Positions 431 through 43,050 of a stretch of 64,000 nucleotides of DNA are shown here, piece after piece. Positions within the stretch are counted from its first letter, which is position 1. Each line of letters starts with the position of its first letter. Below the pieces are notes generated by a model. It was given only the letters and a program-made list of their open reading frames with translations, had not been told where the DNA came from and did not search any database. The stretch is taken from assembly GCF_040054535.1 (NCBI RefSeq), contig NC_090785.1, positions 14,646,501 through 14,710,500 of the forward strand, written 5' to 3'. The position numbers and the translations under genes were made by a program. The stretch is from Antennarius striatus. Taxonomy: Eukaryota > Chordata > Actinopteri > Lophiiformes > Antennariidae.

Positions 431-1890
431 CGTTTTTTTTGAATCAATAGAAATTATTGGCATAACATGGTCCTGGCATCCACAGTGTGACATAACCCAT
501 AAATGAAACGCGTGCCGCCAGCAGGTATACCCCTCTGAACATATATTCTTTCTCTGGAAAAATATGTTTCACATAAACCCAGAAAAATCATCACTTTTTT
601 CTCCAAAACAAATTAAACCAAAGGAAGATGAGTTTTTTGAAAGCCTCTGATTGAATCAAATGGTACCAATGCAATTAGCATGATTCTGTTTAATGAGGTT
701 GCAGAATAGTCAGACGTTAAAGAGTATTTTCTATAGATGCTGTACAGACAAAATAATCTCTATTTATCCTATTAATTCAGCAGGAGATATTACACTCTGG
801 TAAATTGACTGAAAATCAACTAAACTTCAGCAAGTAGAATAATGAAAAGAGAGGATTTTTTGGGCAGGATTCCGGCATGACACACAATATTCCTTTCATG
901 AGGCAGACTCTGTACGAAAGTAGACTGCAGCTCTAATGACGCACCTTTAAACCAGCTGACTTCTGCTGATCACATTGCTTTCTCCATAAGTTTCCTTTAC
1001 CCTTTATAATAGTCCAGGTGTTCATGCCCCTTTGGAAAATTACATCCTATAACCAAATGATTGTGACAAAGCCATGTGCAATGACATTTTATTTTATATT
1101 GACGTAGCTACCAATGAGGTCTGGCTTCTTCATGGACACATATAGAACTACTTTTGTGCTAATAATCATCCTGTATTGAAGTATGTTTTTCCTTTTTGCT
1201 TAGATTTTCAGAGCACTCGCTTCTTCAACACAATCTTGGGTAATTGTCTTATAATTAGGTTGCAGTCTTTGCAGTATTATCTTCAGTGTTGCACGGTATC
1301 ATTTCCTCAAGTCGAATACTAAATGACTTTAATAGAACATTAGAACATTTACAATGCAATCAATACTTTCCAGGTGATATGTAGAGATTAATGAAGCAGC
1401 TGTGTATCAGTTCGGTTTAGTCAAACTCATTACAGGTTGGATTGAACATTGCTATCGCAGGTCAGATCCTGAAAATAACAGACATGTTTTTAAGCCCACT
1501 TGCAATGAATGTGTTGGATGGATTGCCCATAGTTCAATTTTTTCAATGACATGTTTTTATATTGATGTATTATGTAAAGAGAGGAAGAGAACCTGCCAGG
1601 AGATATTTAAATTAATGATTTAATTAATCAATTGTAAGTTCTAGCAGCAGTAGCTTTGGTTTAGTCAGGGATTCAAGTGAACAGGTGGAAGTCTGACAGT
1701 GGGAGGCCAGTGGGGATGACGTTCTAGTCAAGCATCAGCTACTTATAATGGTTGATTGATAGAAGGAATGCTTCATGGGGAGTGGTTGCACGACACATTA
1801 ACAGGAAATACAGATGTTGTGAAATCTAAATGTAAAATTGTACAAACATGTGCCAAGAAGTAATTCTATTTAATATTTTTACCTCCTCAG
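431..1890. other. Non-coding flank upstream of the NPY receptor
   Basis: AT-rich single-copy-looking sequence with no convincing ORF or recognised repeat. It ends in a pyrimidine-rich tract and AG at 1889-1890 that looks like a 3' splice site just before the receptor start codon, so part of this stretch may be an intron within the receptor 5'UTR. I see no clear promoter. Confidence 0.5.
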
Positions 1891-1927
1891 GCATCAGCCA
1901 AGCCTTGATCTGTCATCTCCTGCTAAG

Positions 1928-3043
1928 ATGAGCCCACCGGACTCATGCAACAGCAGCAGTGAAGGTGAGGCTGCCGAAACCAACCCCTGGTTTCTTCTGA
2001 ACGACAGCATGGGTTTATACTCTCCTGGTTTCCACACTGACATCACCAAGCACCTCGGAGTCCAGGCCACGCTTATCACCGCATACTCCCTCATCATCCT
2101 GCTGGGGCTGGTGGGCAATGCTCTGGTCATATACATGATTATTCGCTACAGAAACATGAGAACAGTGACCAACTTCTTCATAGCCAACCTGGCGGTGGCA
2201 GACCTCCTGGTTGACACTCTTTGCTTGCCCTTCACTCTGGTTTACACTCTGTTAGACGAATGGAAGTTTGGGGCTGTGCTGTGTCACATGGTGCCCTTTG
2301 CCCAGGCCCTGAGTGTGCATGTTTCCATCCTGACCTTGACTGTCATCGCTCTGGACCGTTACCGTTGCATCGTCTTCCATCTTGGCCGGCGCCTAACTTG
2401 GCACTCCAGCTTCCTCATCATGGCAGCCACCTGGACTTTGTCCGCCGTCCTGGCAGCCCCCATGGCCATCTTCAGAGAGTACCGCTACGAAGAGATCCCC
2501 TCCATCAACCTGCGTATCGCCGTCTGCTCTGAGAATTGGCCCCATGGGACTAGTAGGGATGGAGTTATTTACAGTTTCTCTATGCTGCTGTTGCAGTACA
2601 TCATTCCTTTAGCCATCATCAGCTATGCTTACATCTGCATCTGGGTTAAACTGAAGAATCACATCAGCCCGTCCAGCCGAAATGACAGTATCAGTCGCCG
2701 CAAAAAGGCCACCAAGATGTTGGCTCTGGTGGTTGTGGTGTTTGCAATCTGCTGGTTGCCATTCCATGTGATTCAGCTGGCCAGCGATTTGGATCTGGCA
2801 CTCAGGCTGAAGGAGTATAAATTCATTTACACAGTGTTCCATATCATAGCCATGTGCTCGACATTCACCAATCCCGTTCTTTATGGGTGGATGAATAAAA
2901 ACTACAGGAATGGCTTCCTGATGGTCTTCCGCTGCGAGGACAAGCCTGAGTCTTTCCACCCAGAGGGCTCCTTCAGGACACGTTCCTTGAGAAGGCTGAC
3001 ACTGAACGGTCGTAACGGCGGACACCCTCCAACTGCTGTATGA
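1928..3043 (+). CDS. npy7r: Neuropeptide Y/peptide YY receptor, Y2 subfamily, probably Y7
   Basis: Class A G-protein-coupled receptor of 371 residues in one uninterrupted exon. Receptors of this subfamily bind NPY and PYY at the plasma membrane and usually signal through Gi/o. Visible features: N-glycosylation sequon at Asn8; TM1 about 47-72 with the GN motif; TM2 about 82-106 with LAVAD; the Cys119-Cys200 pair expected to bridge TM3 and extracellular loop 2; DRYRCIV at the end of TM3 (143-149; mammalian Y2 has DRHRCIV); CWLPFH in TM6 (275-280); HIIAMCSTFTNPVLYGWMN in TM7 (305-323); and a Cys at 336 in the expected palmitoylation position. The first ATG is chosen because a likely acceptor AG lies at 1889-1890, giving a short leader. 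Y2 and Y7 are hard to separate by eye. Linkage to prelid1, mxd3 and ddx41 (a human 5q-like block) favours Y7, since NPY2R belongs to the 4q-like block. Family call is firm; the Y7 symbol is inference. Confidence 0.93.
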   Translation: MSPPDSCNSSSEGEAAETNPWFLLNDSMGLYSPGFHTDITKHLGVQATLITAYSLIILLGLVGNALVIYMIIRYRNMRTVTNFFIANLAVADLLVDTLCLPFTLVYTLLDEWKFGAVLCHMVPFAQALSVHVSILTLTVIALDRYRCIVFHLGRRLTWHSSFLIMAATWTLSAVLAAPMAIFREYRYEEIPSINLRIAVCSENWPHGTSRDGVIYSFSMLLLQYIIPLAIISYAYICIWVKLKNHISPSSRNDSISRRKKATKMLALVVVVFAICWLPFHVIQLASDLDLALRLKEYKFIYTVFHIIAMCSTFTNPVLYGWMNKNYRNGFLMVFRCEDKPESFHPEGSFRTRSLRRLTLNGRNGGHPPTAV

Positions 3044-6116: not shown

Positions 6117-6541
6117 TACAGGTAACAATATCTGCTTTGGAAACGAAAACACCTGTTTATCGATTGAATATCTCCTCAATAAATGGGTATATTAATGTTC
6201 CGCCATTGATTCTTGACTACATGCTAACGCTAGTTTATGCTATCCAGAAAATGCAGGAACGCTTACGTGACAAACGTGACAGTAGCAGTTTATGGTATAC
6301 AGTTTAAAATATTCCTCACGTACATTAAACCCCGTGTTTCTCCTTAGCTATATCAGGGGTAAACGTGATTATTTTGTGTGATTTTGTGCTGCTAAGACCG
6401 ACAACTGTCACGTTTAGCCCTAATCCGTTAGATGTCCATTACGCCTGTGCCTGGAGTCCCGGTGGTTTTATTCTCAGGTTGAAGACAAACACATGTTTTG
6501 TGCTGCCTCCACAGGGACTGCCCGAGTAAACACAGGGAACA

Positions 6542-9500
6542 ATGGTGAAGTATTTCTGCGGTGCAGATCTGCTCAAAGGCACCTGGGACCAAGTCTGTGT
6601 TGCTTTCTGGCAGCGGTATCCGAATCCTTACAGGTGAGATCGGTGACTGCAGTCAGAAGCGAGGCTCAGCACTTGTGCATTTAGATTGTTAATCAGTATT
6701 GTAAAATTATTGACTGTATCTTAATCAAGAACTTTACAAATACTTCATTATGTACCTCATTTGAGAGGATCCTTCAGTTCTGGATGAGAGTACAAACGCC
6801 TAAAGAGAAATTTCTACGAGTCCAGTGGATTGATTTATACGTCTTTAATAATCACTAGTTTCATGACACATTCATTTGAATTGGGATTTTTATTTCTTGT
6901 TTTTTTTAAAAATCCTTTATCCTCTTTTTCCCTTATTTGACGGTCTTGTTTTAATGTCTATTGTCACAAAGATTAGGAATGAATGAAGTACTGTACAACT
7001 ATCCATACACGTGTCATGATAGTGGGGGAAACATGTCATTCTGTTCAGACATGCTGCGAACTGTAAACCACTAAGAACTCTTCAATACTATTGGGTTTTT
7101 TACGTGAAGTATGCCTGAGTGGTGGTTTTTTGTATTTTGGGATTTCTATCAGTTATTTTTTGTTGTTGTATTGTTCTTTGAGTATTAAATTTTTGTCTAT
7201 TGAATACATATTCACCAAGTTGTTAGGGGCCTTTTGTTCATTAGAAACGTTTAACTGTTTTTATTTTGTTATTATTGCCTCACCAACATATTCATGTTGT
7301 TAAGAAAAGGGTGGTTTATTATTTTTCCAGCTCAATATTTGTTTCATAGATGTCATATAGACATCTATGATTATATGTTTGTGATTATATGTTTGTACAG
7401 CAAAACCTTGAGATACGTGTTGAAAGTCAAATATTCTGCATTTAAAATACCTAAAGTCATTTTAATTTAAAAAACAACAAACATGTTTTCATCAACCAGC
7501 AGATATGCGTACTTTACCTGTGCATAATTAATTATATATGTTACATAAACAATACAGTTTGAAAAGAAATGCAGAAGTCACAAGAACACACGAGCTACGT
7601 CTTTACTCCATGAACGAGATCCGGTCTCAGCGGATGTTGTATCCATCTGGTAACTAGTGGTGGTGTCCTGAAGCACGGCTCGAATCTCAGATTTTCACTC
7701 GTATGTCGAACAAAAATATGGAGAGAGCGACAGCTCGTATCTCAAAAAACTTGTATGTCCGTGAGCTCGTATCTCAAGGTACTGCTGTATCTGCTAATGC
7801 TGTTTTAAACTACAGTGCATTTAGACAGTGATTGTGATAAGTGGATGTTGATAAATATATTAAATTTTATGTCTTTTGCTAATTGACTTTTTCCAAGATA
7901 AAAAAAAAACCTCAGGATGGGCTGTTGAATTGACTATTAAATGAGTTTTAGTGGCTTTTCCATTGGCAGCAATCAAACAAGTGAATCTCTACAAAAGGAA
8001 AAGGAATCGCCCCCTCAGTCATTTCCCGATGGCTCCATCGTTCAGTCTGAAGTTGTTAGTTCAGTTTTTTACTGCGCCAGCAGTCGCTGCTTTTACATCA
8101 AAATAGTTTTTCTCATATATTGAAAACGTGTAATGGGTCTTTCTTCCAAACCGTTGGCATCATGTACACTAATTGGTGTGATTTAATTTAAGAAAATAAA
8201 TGACAGAAGAATTTGTAATGAACATGAGCATTACTGCTGACACTTGTGTATTTGTTTTTGATTTTTTCCTGTTTTCCTACAGTAACCATGTTTTGACTGA
8301 AGACATCATTTTCCGAGAAGTTACTCCAACCAACTGCCTCATTTCCAGACGTTTGTTGACCAAAACTAGTCGAGCTCCTCGCTGGATGGAGCGCTACCTT
8401 CCGAAGCACATGGCCAGTTCAGCATACATCATCGAGGATTCCATTGTGGACCCTCAGAAAAGGACCATGACTACTTTCACCTGGAACATCAGCCACGCTC
8501 GCCTCATGGTACCAGTGTCTGCTTCAACAAGCACATAACTAGACGGTAATCAAAAACATGGCCTCATGATGCTTTGCTTTTGTTTCCAGTCTGTGGAAGA
8601 GAGGTGCAAGTACCGTATTAACCCTGAAAACTGCAGCTTTACGGAGATAAAAAGAGAGGCCTGGATTTCTTCCAACGTCTTTGGGCTCAGCCGAGCTATT
8701 CAGGTCAGTAGAGTAAAGGGGAGCGCTGCAATCTGCAGCTACCCTGGAAGAGCTGTGTGTGTTGTTTAATAGTGAAACATGACCCCCCCCCCCACCTCCA
8801 CCACGCTGCAGTCAGTAACATAAGGCACAGTGTTTGACCAACCAGCTTTAGAACATAGATTGGACGTGGGCCATGTGTCCTCATCAAAACATTCCATAAG
8901 ACCAACATTCTAATTTGCAAATTTGTCATCATATATTGTTTGTTCTCTTTCCATGTTGATAATTCCTCATTTAAGATTTAATTATTACTCTCTGGGGAAA
9001 TTCTTTTTACATCTTAGTACATATTGTTACATATATACACACACACAAAGGGCCTACAGACCTGTGGAGTGATGGGTAACCACGTAGCAGCGCCCTGGAA
9101 GTAGTTTTTGGGATGTGGTGCCTTGTCAGTCCACACTGGACTAAACCCGGTTCACTGGCCAGGTCCCTGAGATCTGAACTCTTGCTACACATTTCAAAAG
9201 AATAAATTAGCAATCACCCACATACTGTATCTCACATACTGTATGTCTAATGCACGACAAAAAAAAAGCAGATTCTTAGATTTGCACAATAGCAGGCTTT
9301 ATATTATATAGAATAGAGTACATGAGACAGAAGTGTGTGTAAACATGTTTTATTGTTGACTTTGTGTCTTCTCTCACCAGGAATTTGGTCTCGCGAGGTT
9401 TAAGACCAGCGTCACAAAGACCATGAAAGGATTTGACTTTGTGCTGGCCAGAATGCAAGGTACGCTGTCAGGAATGATGACATCAGTTTGTGTGGCAGAA

Positions 9501-27753: not shown

Positions 27754-33279
<5,526 letters not shown>

Positions 33280-33664: not shown

Positions 33665-33691
33665 TGCCCCTACCACTTCAAGGTAGGGGCA
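33665..33691. repeat. Perfect 10-bp GC-rich hairpin after ddx41
   Basis: TGCCCCTACC, a 7-nt loop ACTTCAA, then GGTAGGGGCA. About 150 bp beyond the ddx41 poly(A) signal. No run of T follows and no other sign of an RNA gene is visible. Confidence 0.85.
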
Positions 33692-34928
33692 GTGTATCTT
33701 CAGGGGGTGAAGTTTAGAAAGGTAAATCTCAAGAGTTCCAAATCTGGAATATTTGAAAAAAGTAAATGTTTATTTCAAGTCCATGTGACCTATTAAGTTA
33801 GACGCAAACACAGTTTGCACCGTACATATTTGTCTGAGGTTCTCACCTGACTTGGAACAAATTCCATCAAGTCTGTGTGCAAATACTGATCAATTCATGA
33901 CAATATATTGAATAAGGCTGCAGTCCAAGAGTAACACCAATGATAACAAAACTGACCATTTTCATAGTGCTGTAAATCAAAGAGAATTTCATGTGGAGTA
34001 TGTTACACCTGTGTGGCATAGATTGAACTTGTTTCTAGTGAATTTAAGAAGCCACGCATCTTCAGACCGCTTGTAGGGTCGCTGTTTTCAACCCTTCACA
34101 ATTATATTGAGTGGAACCGACAACTACAAATTAACAGAAGTAAGCAATCTTCATACTCCATTAAGTTGAATTGTTCCTTAAATGCAAGTTGAAGCTTGTA
34201 GCCTTAGTTGAATTCTCTTCCACACAATTTAAGTAAGAAGAAATGACATACTATGAGTTAAGGTGGTATTATTGTACAGGTTACTATGGAGATGATTTTG
34301 TTTGACCAAATCTTGCAGAAAGGACACATATTTTCAGGAGCTGCAGCACTGCTTCCTCTCTGTCTGCTCTCAGGGCTTACCCTCAAAGATGTAAAGAAAG
34401 AGAAACTGATCCCATTTATTACCTTTATCCAAGATACTTGGTGATTCATAAGGTCCTTAGAATACAGAACCTCATAGAATATGGGCACCATCTCAAATCC
34501 TGCTGCTTCTGATCACCCTTCTAACAAATACTACATTTAGAAGCAAATACAGCACCTTGTCACTTTTTATACCGAGCGCTGGTTTTTGATGAAGGTAGAT
34601 GTGATTTGTGTAACATTAGAAACACATGCTGTGTTTGTTAATGTGAAACCATAACATATCAGATCCATTCATTCATTCATCACTTTTTTAATCTCCACCT
34701 CTTATACCTGCAACAGAAAATGTGGCAAAAAGTTTGAATGTTGATTTTCAAACCCAGCTCTGGGGGGATTGGGAGGTTGGAATTCTTCACTGCACACAAC
34801 AAAATTACTGTTACAGTCAACAGTCAGAAAACATAAGAAAAGCAGTGTGTTTGAGGGACTGCTTCAGTGTTGCCCTGGCTCTGGATGAGTCGTGCCCTCC
34901 TGAACCCATGGCCTTCTGCATAAACACC

Positions 34929-34994
34929 TTCCATCCATCCATCCATCCATCCATCCATTTTCTGCTGCTGTATCTGCCGTAGCGGGTCACCGTT
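34929..34994 (-). mobile_element. SINE family A tail inserted in the dok3 PH exon
   Basis: (CCAT)n followed by TTTTCTGCTGCTGTATCTGC and GTAGCGGGTCACC. Reversed, this is the GTGACCCGCT...GGCAGATA...GGATGG 3' end of SINE family A (compare 47650-47680). Flanks TGCATAAACAC and TGCAAATACAC differ at 2 of 11 bases and may be a decayed target-site duplication. Confidence 0.75.
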
Positions 34995-35754
34995 CAGTGC
35001 AAATACACTCTGACCTTTCCAGCGAGCCAGGACTGGCTCAGTGCCCCCTGCCTCCTGGCCTTTCAGGTATCACACATCTCTTGTTGGTAGCCTTCCCTTT
35101 CTCTTGTATCCAAAGGATTGTTTTCAGGAAATTTGGGAAAGGTTGGGATAAATCTTACTCACAATCAGAGATACATATGACAATGAGGAAGTTAAGATCA
35201 TATCTGTAACTTCTGTCATTTCACTTCTCTAATTCTTGCACTTGCACAAGCTCAGTTCTTCCTTGCATCTTGCTTCTGTAGTGTCATAAAACAGTGATAA
35301 GAGGACAGTGTACACTCCATGTACTGTTTACTGGGCCACTGTGTAAACAGAAAGATCCTGGAGGACAAACACAGAAAGGGGCTTTTGACAGAGGAAATAA
35401 CTTGATGATGGAGGACAATGACCTATACACATCTTGGAAACCTGGTAATGCTCCCTTACTTGCAAAAATAGCTGAACAGTCAGTAAGCAATCATAAAAAA
35501 AAACCCTAATGAGGTTGTCATTAACGGCATTAACTGTTGTCTGCACTACTGTGGTCTGATGTGTTGGACTTAAGGACAGAGATTTACGGACAAAAATCTG
35601 TTTTAATATTCATTAAATACTGAATGTGCAATTTGCTTCTTGCTTGACCATAATTTGTTTGCGTTTACTTTTATATAAAAATCTCATCGTTCTTTGGAAT
35701 AATTCTAAAAGTAAAGTTGGAGTAATTCTAAAAGTAAAGTACAAACACTGTGTA

Positions 35755-35784
35755 TATATATATGTGTGTGTATGTATGTGTGTG

Positions 35785-35872
<88 letters not shown>
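35755..35872. repeat. TG/TA microsatellite
   Basis: A short TATG/TG stretch changes into about 42 TA units. It lies inside the putative intron between the linker and PTB exons of the dok3 relic. Confidence 0.97.
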
Positions 35873-35876
<4 letters not shown>

Positions 35877-37211
35877 TTAATAAAGAGAAGGTAGGATTTT
35901 CAATCATAATTTTTGTTTGTGACAATTTCTTTGCTGTGCATTTTCTGTTTATTTTATTAAAAAGCAAAATTCTTCTGTCCTCTCATGTGTATTTCCATCT
36001 TCTCTTCCAAACCAGTACCAGGTAACTGTCCAGAGCACCGAGGCATCCAGAGTAGGCTGGGGAGTTTCTGGTGTCCCTAAAGAAACAGGTTGTGATGCTG
36101 ATCGCAGTCAGTACCAGTCATATCATCTCCCGCTGACCATACAACTCGTACGCAAATTTGGACAGGTTGAGGTAAGGTACTTCATTTCCTCTAATGTGAA
36201 AGGACACAAAAACAAACTGCATTCTTGAGTTCATGACAAACATGTTACACTTTTCCTTACTGACTGTTTGGGGAGAACTCTCAGTGTCTGTCAGCTTATT
36301 GATTAACATGTTACAGTATATCTAATTTATTCATTCTACAACTAAACATATAAGAGGAAAGCTGTGGGTTTGCTGTCCCCTCGGTCCGAACAAGACACAT
36401 TTTCTCCAGCCAATAGTCTCTGTAGTAAAGTAAGTTGAAGAGCAGGGGGCTCCGGCAAGTTGGAAGTTAAAATACTCAACCCCTGTTTTTGTTTTCAGTT
36501 TTAGAAACGTATGTATTTTATCAAACCAGACAGGAATGGTTGAATTACAACGTACAGTATGTATCCTCTATAAATGAGTGTTGTGAGTCTATTATTTTCA
36601 CGCTTTGACTTTGGCAGAAATTGAACCAGAATGGTACAATATGCAGTCCAAGTTACTTTCAGATTTACTTTCTATTTTCCATGTTTTTATGTTTATATGT
36701 AAATCTACCCAAATCATCTGCTGGTAGCTGCTCTCCAGATATAGAGTAACATTAATCTTTTCAGATGCACTTCCCCCTAATTAAGTCAGACTATTCCTCT
36801 AAGATCTGTATTAATGGCTGTGATTACAGGGTAGATTCAACATCGAAGCAGGCCGCCACTGTGAGTCAGGAGAGGGAGTGTTCATCTTTCTGTTCAGGCA
36901 CGGTCCCCGGTCCTCCGCCGGGTCCTCCGCGGAATGTCCACACGACATCACTCATTGATCAGTCAACTGGTAACGCTCCGACCACAACCAACCAGTCCAC
37001 TGGTTCCCCAGCAGATGTTTCTGCTGAAACAGAGGGTAAGTCTGTCAACCACTACCCTACTATTAATGACAATGACCCGCTGGAGGTAAAGCAGCCATCT
37101 GTTGTCAAACCTTATTTTACCCAAAGCAATGAGGCCACAAGCGAGGAAGATGAGGAAGACAAAGACAGGTGTCGTCCCCCGGCACCTCAGCCTCCACGCT
37201 GCACACTTTGA

Positions 37212-38072: not shown

Positions 38073-38816
38073 CTATTTGTGACTTTCCTCCATGTCGCTG
38101 AAGTGGGAGGATTCCCCGTCGCTGCTGCTGGAAGTTACTGTCGACAAATTAGAGCCCAAGTCAGACGTGGATCCGAGGATTAAAAGATGACCCACGGAGG
38201 CGCAGGGGTCCCGCTGTTCTCCGCTCAGCGGGTCTGGGGGCTGCGCGGCGGGCACCGGTCGGAGACTGTGAATCAGACTCATCCTGGGGGGTTTGTCAGC
38301 TGAACCTGGTAGGGGGCTCATGCACTCAGAATGAACCACACCGGCAAGGAGGTCGGACAGTTCGGTGATGTAAATCTGTGCCATTTGGAGGGTGTCATAC
38401 TTGGACAACTTTCTCTCATTTTCCAGGGAGGGGATGACGCTCCTCAGCTCGTCAAAGGCTTTATTCAGGCCGTGCATCCTCCGCCTCTCCCTGGCGTTGG
38501 CAGCTACGCGCCTGTGTTTGTGGGGGCCAAAGTGGCTCGTCTTGTCTCCTTCTGCTGCCGTGTCTTTCTCTGTGACCCCTGCATCGGACACCCTGTCAGA
38601 AGGTTTACCCACCGCCCCCAGTTTCTCAAGCGAGAGGCCCGCTTCTGCCGCCGCCGCCGCCGCCGCCGCGCCGTGGACGTCCGTTCTGGAGAACGCGTGA
38701 AGAGAATCGGATGAAATCCACGTCTTAGAGTGGATGTGGGCCAGACTGCGCTGCTGCAGCAAAGTGAAATCCTCCGGGTAGTCCGTCCAGCTTGAAATGT
38801 CCGCTTTTGCTGTCAT
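38073..38816 (-). CDS. atoh1: Atonal-type bHLH transcription factor, atoh1 group, single exon
   Basis: Intronless gene of 247 residues on the minus strand. Atoh1 proteins are proneural E-box activators that pair with E proteins and specify hair cells, cerebellar granule cells and related neurons. The bHLH spans about 102-158: [40 protein letters not shown] and ELSDLL are diagnostic of the atonal/Atoh1 group ([12 protein letters not shown] basic region, [12 protein letters not shown] start of helix 2). Further marks are an eight-alanine run at 50-57, coded by a GCC-type repeat, and the Ser-rich C-terminus [17 protein letters not shown], which is Atoh1-like. The helix-1 end [11 protein letters not shown] differs from mammalian ATOH1 (SFNNDKKL), so this is probably one of the extra fish copies (atoh1b or atoh1c), not the direct ATOH1 counterpart; I cannot choose between them. 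A TATA box lies about 100 bp upstream. Confidence 0.93.
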
Positions 38817-38913
38817 CCCTGTGCGTGTCTAGGGTGGTTCACAGCAGAGAAAGGACGCACAGAAGACTGTGGCTGATGCGCACGTCTCTGGAGTGAGTTG
38901 CGCCGCGACAGCA

Positions 38914-41020: not shown

Positions 41021-41092
41021 CCAGCTGGGATCGGCTCCAGCTCCCCTTGACCAGCTACGGCGGATACAGCGGAAGAAGATCAATGAATGAAT
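41021..41092 (+). mobile_element. SINE family A, 3' fragment
   Basis: CCAGCTGGGATCGGCTCCAG, CTACGGCGGATACAGCGG and a terminal AATGAATGA repeat match the 3' end of family A. Confidence 0.7.
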
Positions 41093-41657: not shown

Positions 41658-43050
41658 ACAACAACCTTCTTCTTTTCCTTTCGGCTTTTCCCTTCAGGGG
41701 TTGCCACAGAGAATCAGTTGCCTCCATCTAACCCCGTCTTCTGCTTCCTCTTCTCTTACACCAACTACCTTCATGTCCTCTTTCACTACATCCATAAACC
41801 TCCTAGGCTTCCTGCCTGGCAATTCAAAACTCAGCATCCTTCTACCAATATATTCACTATCTCTCCTCTGGACATGTCCAAACCATCTCAGTCTGGCCTC
41901 TCTCACTTTATCTCCAAAACCTCTAACATGTGCTGTCCCTCTGATGTACTCATTCCTGACCCTATCCTTCCTGGTCACTCCCAAAGAGAACCTCAGCATC
42001 TTCATCTCTGCTACCTCCAGCTCTGCGTCCTGTCTTTTCCTTAGTGACACTGTCTCTAGACCAAACAACATCGCTGGTCTCACCAGTTTTGTACACCTTT
42101 CCTTTCCTTCTCATTCACACACATGTACTTTGTCTTACTGCGGCTAACCGTCTTTCCTCTCCTTTCCAGGACAAACCTCCACCTCTCTAGCTTCTCCTCC
42201 ACCTGTTCCCTGCTCTCACTACAGATCACAATGTCATCTGCAAACATCATAGTCCATGGAGATTCCTGTCTAACCTCGTCTGTCAGCCTGTCCATCACCA
42301 TAGCGAACAAGAAGGGGCTCAGAGCTGATCCCTGATGCAGTCCCACCTCCACCTTGAACTCCTCTGTCACACCTATAGCACACCTCACCACTGTCTTACA
42401 GTCCTCATACATGTCCTGCACCGCTCTAACATACTTCTCTGCCACTCCAGACTTCCTCATACAATACCACAGTTCCTCTCTGGGCACCCTGTCATAAGCT
42501 TTCTCCAGATCTACAAAAACACAATGCAGCTCCCTCTGGCCTTCTCTGTACTTCTCTATCAACATCTAGCTTCCACTACTCTTTCCCATAACTTCATTGT
42601 ATGGCTCATCAGCTTTATTCCTCTAGTTTCCACAACTCTGCACATCTCCGTTGTTCTTAAAAATGGGCACCAGAACACTTCTCCTCCATTCTTCAGGCAT
42701 CTTCTCACTATCTAAGATCCTGTTGAACAACCCAGTCAGAAACTCTACTGCCACCTCTCCTAGACACTTCCAAACCTCTACAGGTATATCATCAGGACCG
42801 ACTGCTTTTCCACTCTTCATCCTCTTCAATGCCCTCCTCACTTCATCCTGACTAATCTTTGCTACTTCCTGGTCCACAACAGTCACCTCTTCTAGTCTTT
42901 GTTCTCTCTCATTTTCCAAGTTCATCAACTCTTCAAAGTACTCTTTCTATCTTCCCATCACACTACTGGCACCTGTCAATAGACTTCCATCCCTATCCTT
43001 AATCACCCTGACCTGCTATGTCCTTCCCATCTCTGTCTCGCCAACCTGTA
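41658..43050 (-). mobile_element. 5'-truncated RTE-type LINE fragment with reverse transcriptase
   Basis: Reads right to left. Pieces of a reverse transcriptase cover 42928-42623 (KMKSGKAVGPDDIPVEVWKC, palm start) and 42565-42080 (VFVDLEKAYDRVPREELW, QGSALSPFLFAMVMD, the catalytic FADD in MMFADDIVICSES). The post-RT region follows at 42083-41694 (LRFSLGVTRKDRVRNEYIRG, RWFGHVQRRD). Frames are broken and the segment between the RT and the RWFGH region is shortened, so it is inactive. The 3' end (41658-41700) is the common fish form beginning CTTCTTCTTTTCC as written. The N-terminal endonuclease is absent. Confidence 0.88.

Follow-up and report, generated by a model that had tools for sequence, protein, structure and literature searches.

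The window, i.e., the whole stretch of DNA analysed, covers 64 kb of contig C10 in a genome assembly of 548 Mb and 42 contigs, which we read as that of a fish from its genes and repeats. Between ddx41 and an atoh1-like open frame it holds what is left of a DOK gene: five exon pieces on the + strand. The match to ddx41 ends at position 33276 and the DOK remains follow downstream on the same strand; the atoh1-like frame (38076-38828) lies on the opposite strand. The order agrees with that of the human genes (fam193b-ddx41-DOK3, same strand). The neighbourhood is thus the one expected of a DOK3 orthologue, with ddx41 recognised by match and fam193b as open frames only, and no working reading frame was found at the locus. 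All but one of the five exon pieces carry disabling changes and the introns are still in place, as in a unitary pseudogene. A processed pseudogene was ruled out by the five exon pieces with their splice sites.

The original prediction, namely that dok3 is dead in place behind ddx41 among intact neighbours, was borne out in its first part by the lesions re-read below and by profile matches at three places. As for the neighbours, ddx41 matches human DDX41 over 599 of 622 residues, with stops only where the matches enter introns and no lesion inside any exon over the matched part. Residues 1-211 of prelid1 are matched (one match crossing an intron) and mxd3 is matched in six pieces between residues 1 and 206; neither has a lesion in its matched parts, although three of the mxd3 pieces match weakly (E 0.16, 0.16, and 0.013) and none of the six covers residues 48-58. 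The atoh1 gene is a single open frame. The claim of intactness thus stands for these four genes over the parts described; for fam193b, known here as open frames alone, it goes no further than those frames. The window also includes a long open frame at 1874-3040, a candidate single-exon gene that presumably encodes a neuropeptide Y receptor, to judge from its looks. At 42083-42565 there is a reverse-transcriptase-like open frame, and similar frames adjoin, by eye, both dok1 loci of this genome (L009, about 6154-6729; L035, about 113-565).

The five exon pieces and their disabling changes

The remnant of coding exon 1 (33665-33721, + strand) was an addition to the exons listed in the original prediction. 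Its 19 codons read CPYHFKVGAVYLQGVKFRK and are followed by a donor GT. In the dok1 gene on contig C23, exon 1 reads MDTHVKEGQLYVQHQKFGK, also followed by GT, and 8 of the 19 residues are alike; the remnant resembles the first exon of the DOK gene on C8 too. At the position expected for the start codon there is a TGC, and the remnant has no ATG. The exon 1 motif occurs once in the window, at the remnant itself, a post hoc count in that the motif was drawn after seeing the remnant.

The exon of the PH domain (34717-35066, + strand) retains its AG and GT. It measures 350 nt with an insert and 284 nt without it, which is not a multiple of 3; the PH exon of the C23 dok1 has 324 nt. The TGA predicted in place of a Trp codon is present at 34735-34737 in the opening frame of the exon, where KMWQKV is followed by the stop and then by MLIFKPSSGGIGRLEFF (MLIFKPSSGGIGRLEFFTAHNKITVTVNSQK when read further). 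Four of the six compared DOK sequences have Trp at this position (human DOK1 and DOK3, and the genes on C23 and C3, but not human DOK2 or the C8 gene). The frame change announced between 34815 and 34836 was found upon re-reading as one net change at 34831-34832: one frame ends with NSQK at 34830, IRKAVCLRDC starts at 34833 in another frame, and the reading resumes as IRKAVCLRDCFSVALALDESCPPEPMAFCINT. The 66-nt insert (34929-34994, + strand) consists of (TCCA)n and a dispersed-repeat tail, with an in-frame TAG at 34980-34982. Within the window the repeat tail recurs near 41048, 46369, and 47650, and it is also found on C15 and elsewhere on C10, where longer repeat sequence follows it. The insert had been called a SINE tail. 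What stands is a repeat tail carrying a TAG; a tRNA- or 7SL/5S-derived head, as expected of a SINE, does not accompany it, and its source may be a SINE or another retroelement.

The linker exon (35351-35444, + strand), absent from the original prediction, is intact: it is open in the expected frame (KDPGGQTQKGAFDRGNNLMMEDNDLYTSWKPG) and has both splice sites. The intron preceding the next exon includes an array of 60 copies of the TA dinucleotide (35753-35872).

The first PTB exon (36016-36171, + strand) has 156 nt, compared with 173 nt on C23, 170 nt on C3, and 173 nt on C8, all three being 2 mod 3. It has the two frame changes that had been described: its ends are DOK-like in frame 0 and its middle in frame 1. 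The second Trp-to-TGA change, in the WPY motif at 36134-36136, is likewise there, but it is a stop only in the local, shifted frame 1. Frame 0 runs through the whole exon without a stop, which makes this TGA a decayed codon and not the point at which translation would end.

The last exon starts with GRFNIEAGRHCESGEGVFIFL (36830-36892, + strand), in a frame that closes soon afterwards. The C-terminal part of the PTB domain, with its helix, was sought behind GRFNIEAGRHCESGEGVFIFL in the last exon and not found, in agreement with the predicted loss of this part. A stretch of 101 open codons in a different frame (36906-37211, + strand) is a putative last-exon tail of the DOK gene.

Could the locus still encode a truncated or rearranged protein, or give rise to a regulatory RNA? 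The splice dinucleotides are all retained (8 of 8: 4 GT and 4 AG), and the linker, frame 0 of the PTB exon, and the 101 codons of the last part are open. However, a transcript that leaves the linker exon, in phase 1, and joins the PTB exon at its present acceptor enters frame 2, which has a stop inside that exon; a protein started at the ATG of the linker exon and spliced at the present sites would end there. The core of the PTB domain is scrambled, and no C-terminal part of the domain was found. Moreover, the window holds 181 stop-to-stop frames of at least 75 aa, so an open stretch means little. We give this possibility very little credence, and the locus is expected to yield no PH-PTB protein.

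That the gene is intact and its lesions are errors of assembly or sequencing seems hardly credible, even if the assembly contains N stretches elsewhere. The lesions differ in kind (nonsense changes, indels, an inserted repeat, loss of a domain end, and loss of the start) and are concentrated in a single gene, whereas ddx41, prelid1, and mxd3 alongside have none in their matched parts, which agrees with the earlier view that poor assembly is an unlikely cause. Furthermore, 11 of 42 invariant residues are replaced or turned into stops, which sequencing errors would not produce.

Likeness to DOK genes and the name of the dead gene

We built one PH and one PTB profile, each from six DOK sequences (those of three loci in the same genome and of the three human proteins, DOK1-3, whose sequences are assumed to be right), and searched the six frames of the window, with the reversed window and three triplet shuffles as controls. 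The four best rows are all at the locus, on the + strand and in order, with 18.3, 17.3, 16.8, and 15.7 bits. They correspond to three places, the two PTB rows coming from a single place that was covered twice by overlapping chunks: PTB at about 36806-36916, and PH at 34767-34946 and 34720-34857. The next-best row in the window has 8.8 bits, and the control maxima are 4.8 bits in the reversed window and 3.3, 1.8, and 4.4 bits in the shuffles. By profile alone, two parts do no better than chance, namely the first PTB exon at 1.7 bits and the final stretch of PH at 0.8 bits; these two were assigned by their place, splice sites, and short motifs. PH and PTB signatures of the DOK type thus occur in order on one strand. 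The stitched PTB reading matches the Pfam IRS/PTB family (E 5.1e-08), and for the stitched PH reading Pfam gave no match; with the PTB exon in its plain frame 0, the PTB reading matches the solved DOK1 PTB structure (E 1.5e-4).

The dead gene retains 31 of the 42 assessable columns that are invariant in the other DOK genes, a flattered value given that its frames were picked for DOK-likeness. Against sets of five genes it retains between 31/42 and 34/50 of the invariant residues. When the six other DOK genes are left out one at a time, they retain 43/46, 43/46, 43/51, 43/43, 43/45, and 43/47. A crude hand estimate based on the 31/42, which assumes neutral decay, counts about 2.25 sites per codon at which a substitution changes the amino acid, and uses no calibrated rate, gives about 0.13 substitutions per site since the death of the gene.

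The phylogeny gives the dead gene no firm position: its placement has a support of 25/0, and the alternative placements with DOK1 and DOK2 are not rejected (p-AU 0.376 and 0.435). In the PTB tree the closest row to it is human DOK3 (42% identity over 72 columns), and over PH and PTB together the highest identity is with human DOK2 (37% over 156). We named it dok3 because of the gene order, which is that of the human genes, the RKFG motif, and a gap of two residues ahead of the PH Trp, the motif and the gap being found in the dead gene and human DOK3 alone among the sequences compared. The SGEG motif, common to DOK2 and DOK3, counts for less. DOK3, a PH-PTB adaptor of myeloid and B cells, and the dead gene have in common a position behind ddx41 and on its strand, the PH domain, a linker with MEDN-LY, the PTB as remnants, RKFG, and the PH gap. 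The dead gene differs from DOK3 by the missing start codon, stops, frame changes, repeat insert, and missing PTB end; as read from its sequence, it cannot encode a DOK3 protein.

Other DOK genes in the genome

The search of the whole genome for an intact dok3, which had been proposed as a check, revealed none. In the 548-Mb genome we found three other loci of the DOK1/2/3 type: two of dok1 type (C23 and C8) and one of dok2 type (C3). They share with the dead gene the first-exon motif, the PH and PTB signatures, and the places of the splice sites, and the C23 dok1 has the main part of the PH domain in one exon, as does the window gene. Unlike those of the dead gene, the exons read at these loci are open and keep their frame, with part of the dok2 last exon given as N.

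Genome-wide, the search for the IRS/PTB family returned 25 matches, none of them the dead gene: 21 were read in place and four are long single-exon matches. By eye, and setting aside two of the four long ones, we take the matches to be IRS-like (4, two of them long), talin (6, at three loci), FRS (2), DOK4/5/6-like (2), myosin FERM (3), DOK type (two on C23, two on C8, and one on C3), and one unassigned on C16. Some DOK genes may escape this family search, since just two DOK4/5/6-like loci were seen. The C8 PTB exon, as protein, matches C8, C23, and C3 and nowhere else in the genome. The window PTB matches the window alone, the window PH protein matches the window and, weakly, C23 (E 0.058), and the DNA of the window PH exon is unique in the genome except for the repeat tail. 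No second dok3-like sequence was found in the assembly, which has N stretches, by protein, DNA, or family searches. A second dok3 elsewhere in the genome was rejected on these searches and on the tree of the C8 gene given below. Straight behind the PTB match in the last exon of the C3 dok2 there is a long N block (an assembly gap or a masked stretch), so a dok3 copy could in principle sit inside such a gap.

The C3 gene pairs with human DOK2 with 87% to 90% support, and the tree of PTB alone does not fix its position. A PDLIM-family match lies 1.1 Mb from it on C3, which fits dok2 by the human gene order.

The C8 gene (L009, C8:13858001-13867000) is a divergent second dok1-type gene and the single serious candidate for a living dok3. 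It extends over some 18 kb among retroelements (L009, L030, and L031), and its PH domain is split over three exons and lacks the second PH Trp (KWKAVLLSLF). Of two dok3 copies made by the teleost genome duplication, it might be the survivor and the window copy its dead twin. A prelid1-like exon of nearly equal extent is found on both contigs (C8:6759092-6759325 and C10:14654778-14655008), which suggests that C8 and C10 are partners from that duplication; with such a partnership, L009 might be a misjudged dok3 duplicate. The first half of its PTB aligns without gaps to human DOK3 (53.6%), its tail carries LYAQVCK and YENL and so resembles that of human DOK3, and once the dead gene is included the trees give L009 no firm position. 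Yet when the dead gene is left out, L009 pairs with the C23 dok1 (91/88) and with human DOK1 (93/91), values that are below the tool's star, and a clade of L009 with human DOK3 is rejected (p-AU 0.009). L009 and C23 have in common the tail pattern LYxxVxKxKP..IYxNLGxI and the stretch ENMxAFxVETxDKTxVFA, and L009 has neither RKFG nor SGEG nor the PH gap. The PDLIM-family search gave none beside L009, the nearest among the C8 matches listed being 10 Mb off. We consider it quite improbable that L009 is the living dok3. A LOX-family match 3.2 Mb from L009 on C8 is not informative on the identity of the locus.

Probable loss of an immune adaptor

Very probably, the locus in the window is dok3 itself, a unitary pseudogene with no other copy found in the genome, still at its ancestral place behind ddx41, and undone by ordinary decay. 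Selection on dok3 would have ceased, and its coding capacity would then have been lost through ordinary mutational decay. Unitary pseudogenes of immune genes are a known class in vertebrates, and they resemble the dead dok3 in being lost in place, with introns present and no working copy found. What is well supported is a clean single-gene loss of an immune adaptor in one fish genome, an event of a known and ordinary kind.

In mammals, DOK3 restrains Toll-like and immunoreceptor signalling. Judged by these mammalian pathways, the fish may be missing this brake, or it may be carried by dok1 (two copies) and dok2; by this analogy, the lineage has probably lost one known immune brake. The function of DOK3 in macrophages and mice is treated in PMC3384629, and a passage of PMC7873567 mentions DOK3 and TBK1 in general terms. 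An excerpt of PMC9917028 describes a positive role for DOK3 in TLR3 signalling, and the word brake therefore does not cover the whole of its function.

Other fishes appear to have dok3, because transcripts bearing the name are described, in excerpts of the respective reports, in the large yellow croaker (PMC9917028) and, as docking protein 3, in the turbot (PMC11659141), the orthology being by name alone in both. Passages of PMC2446394 put Dok2, Dok3, and Dok1 at separate Lbx/Tlx loci and report teleost Dok1 and Dok2 loci; in these passages, DOK3 is placed only on the human region bearing TLX3. In the literature searched, mostly at the level of listings, we found no report of the loss of dok3 in a fish.

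A single-gene loss in one genome is of moderate interest. A vertebrate without DOK3 would be a natural knock-out, bearing on how far Toll-like signalling depends on DOK3 and on whether dok1 and dok2 compensate. A further reading, which we hold to be unlikely as a whole, combines a complete loss of DOK3 from the lineage, a brake that is absent or rewired, and a role partly taken over by the divergent dok1 on C8, a gene with a split PH domain and a tail with LYxxV and a YENL motif.
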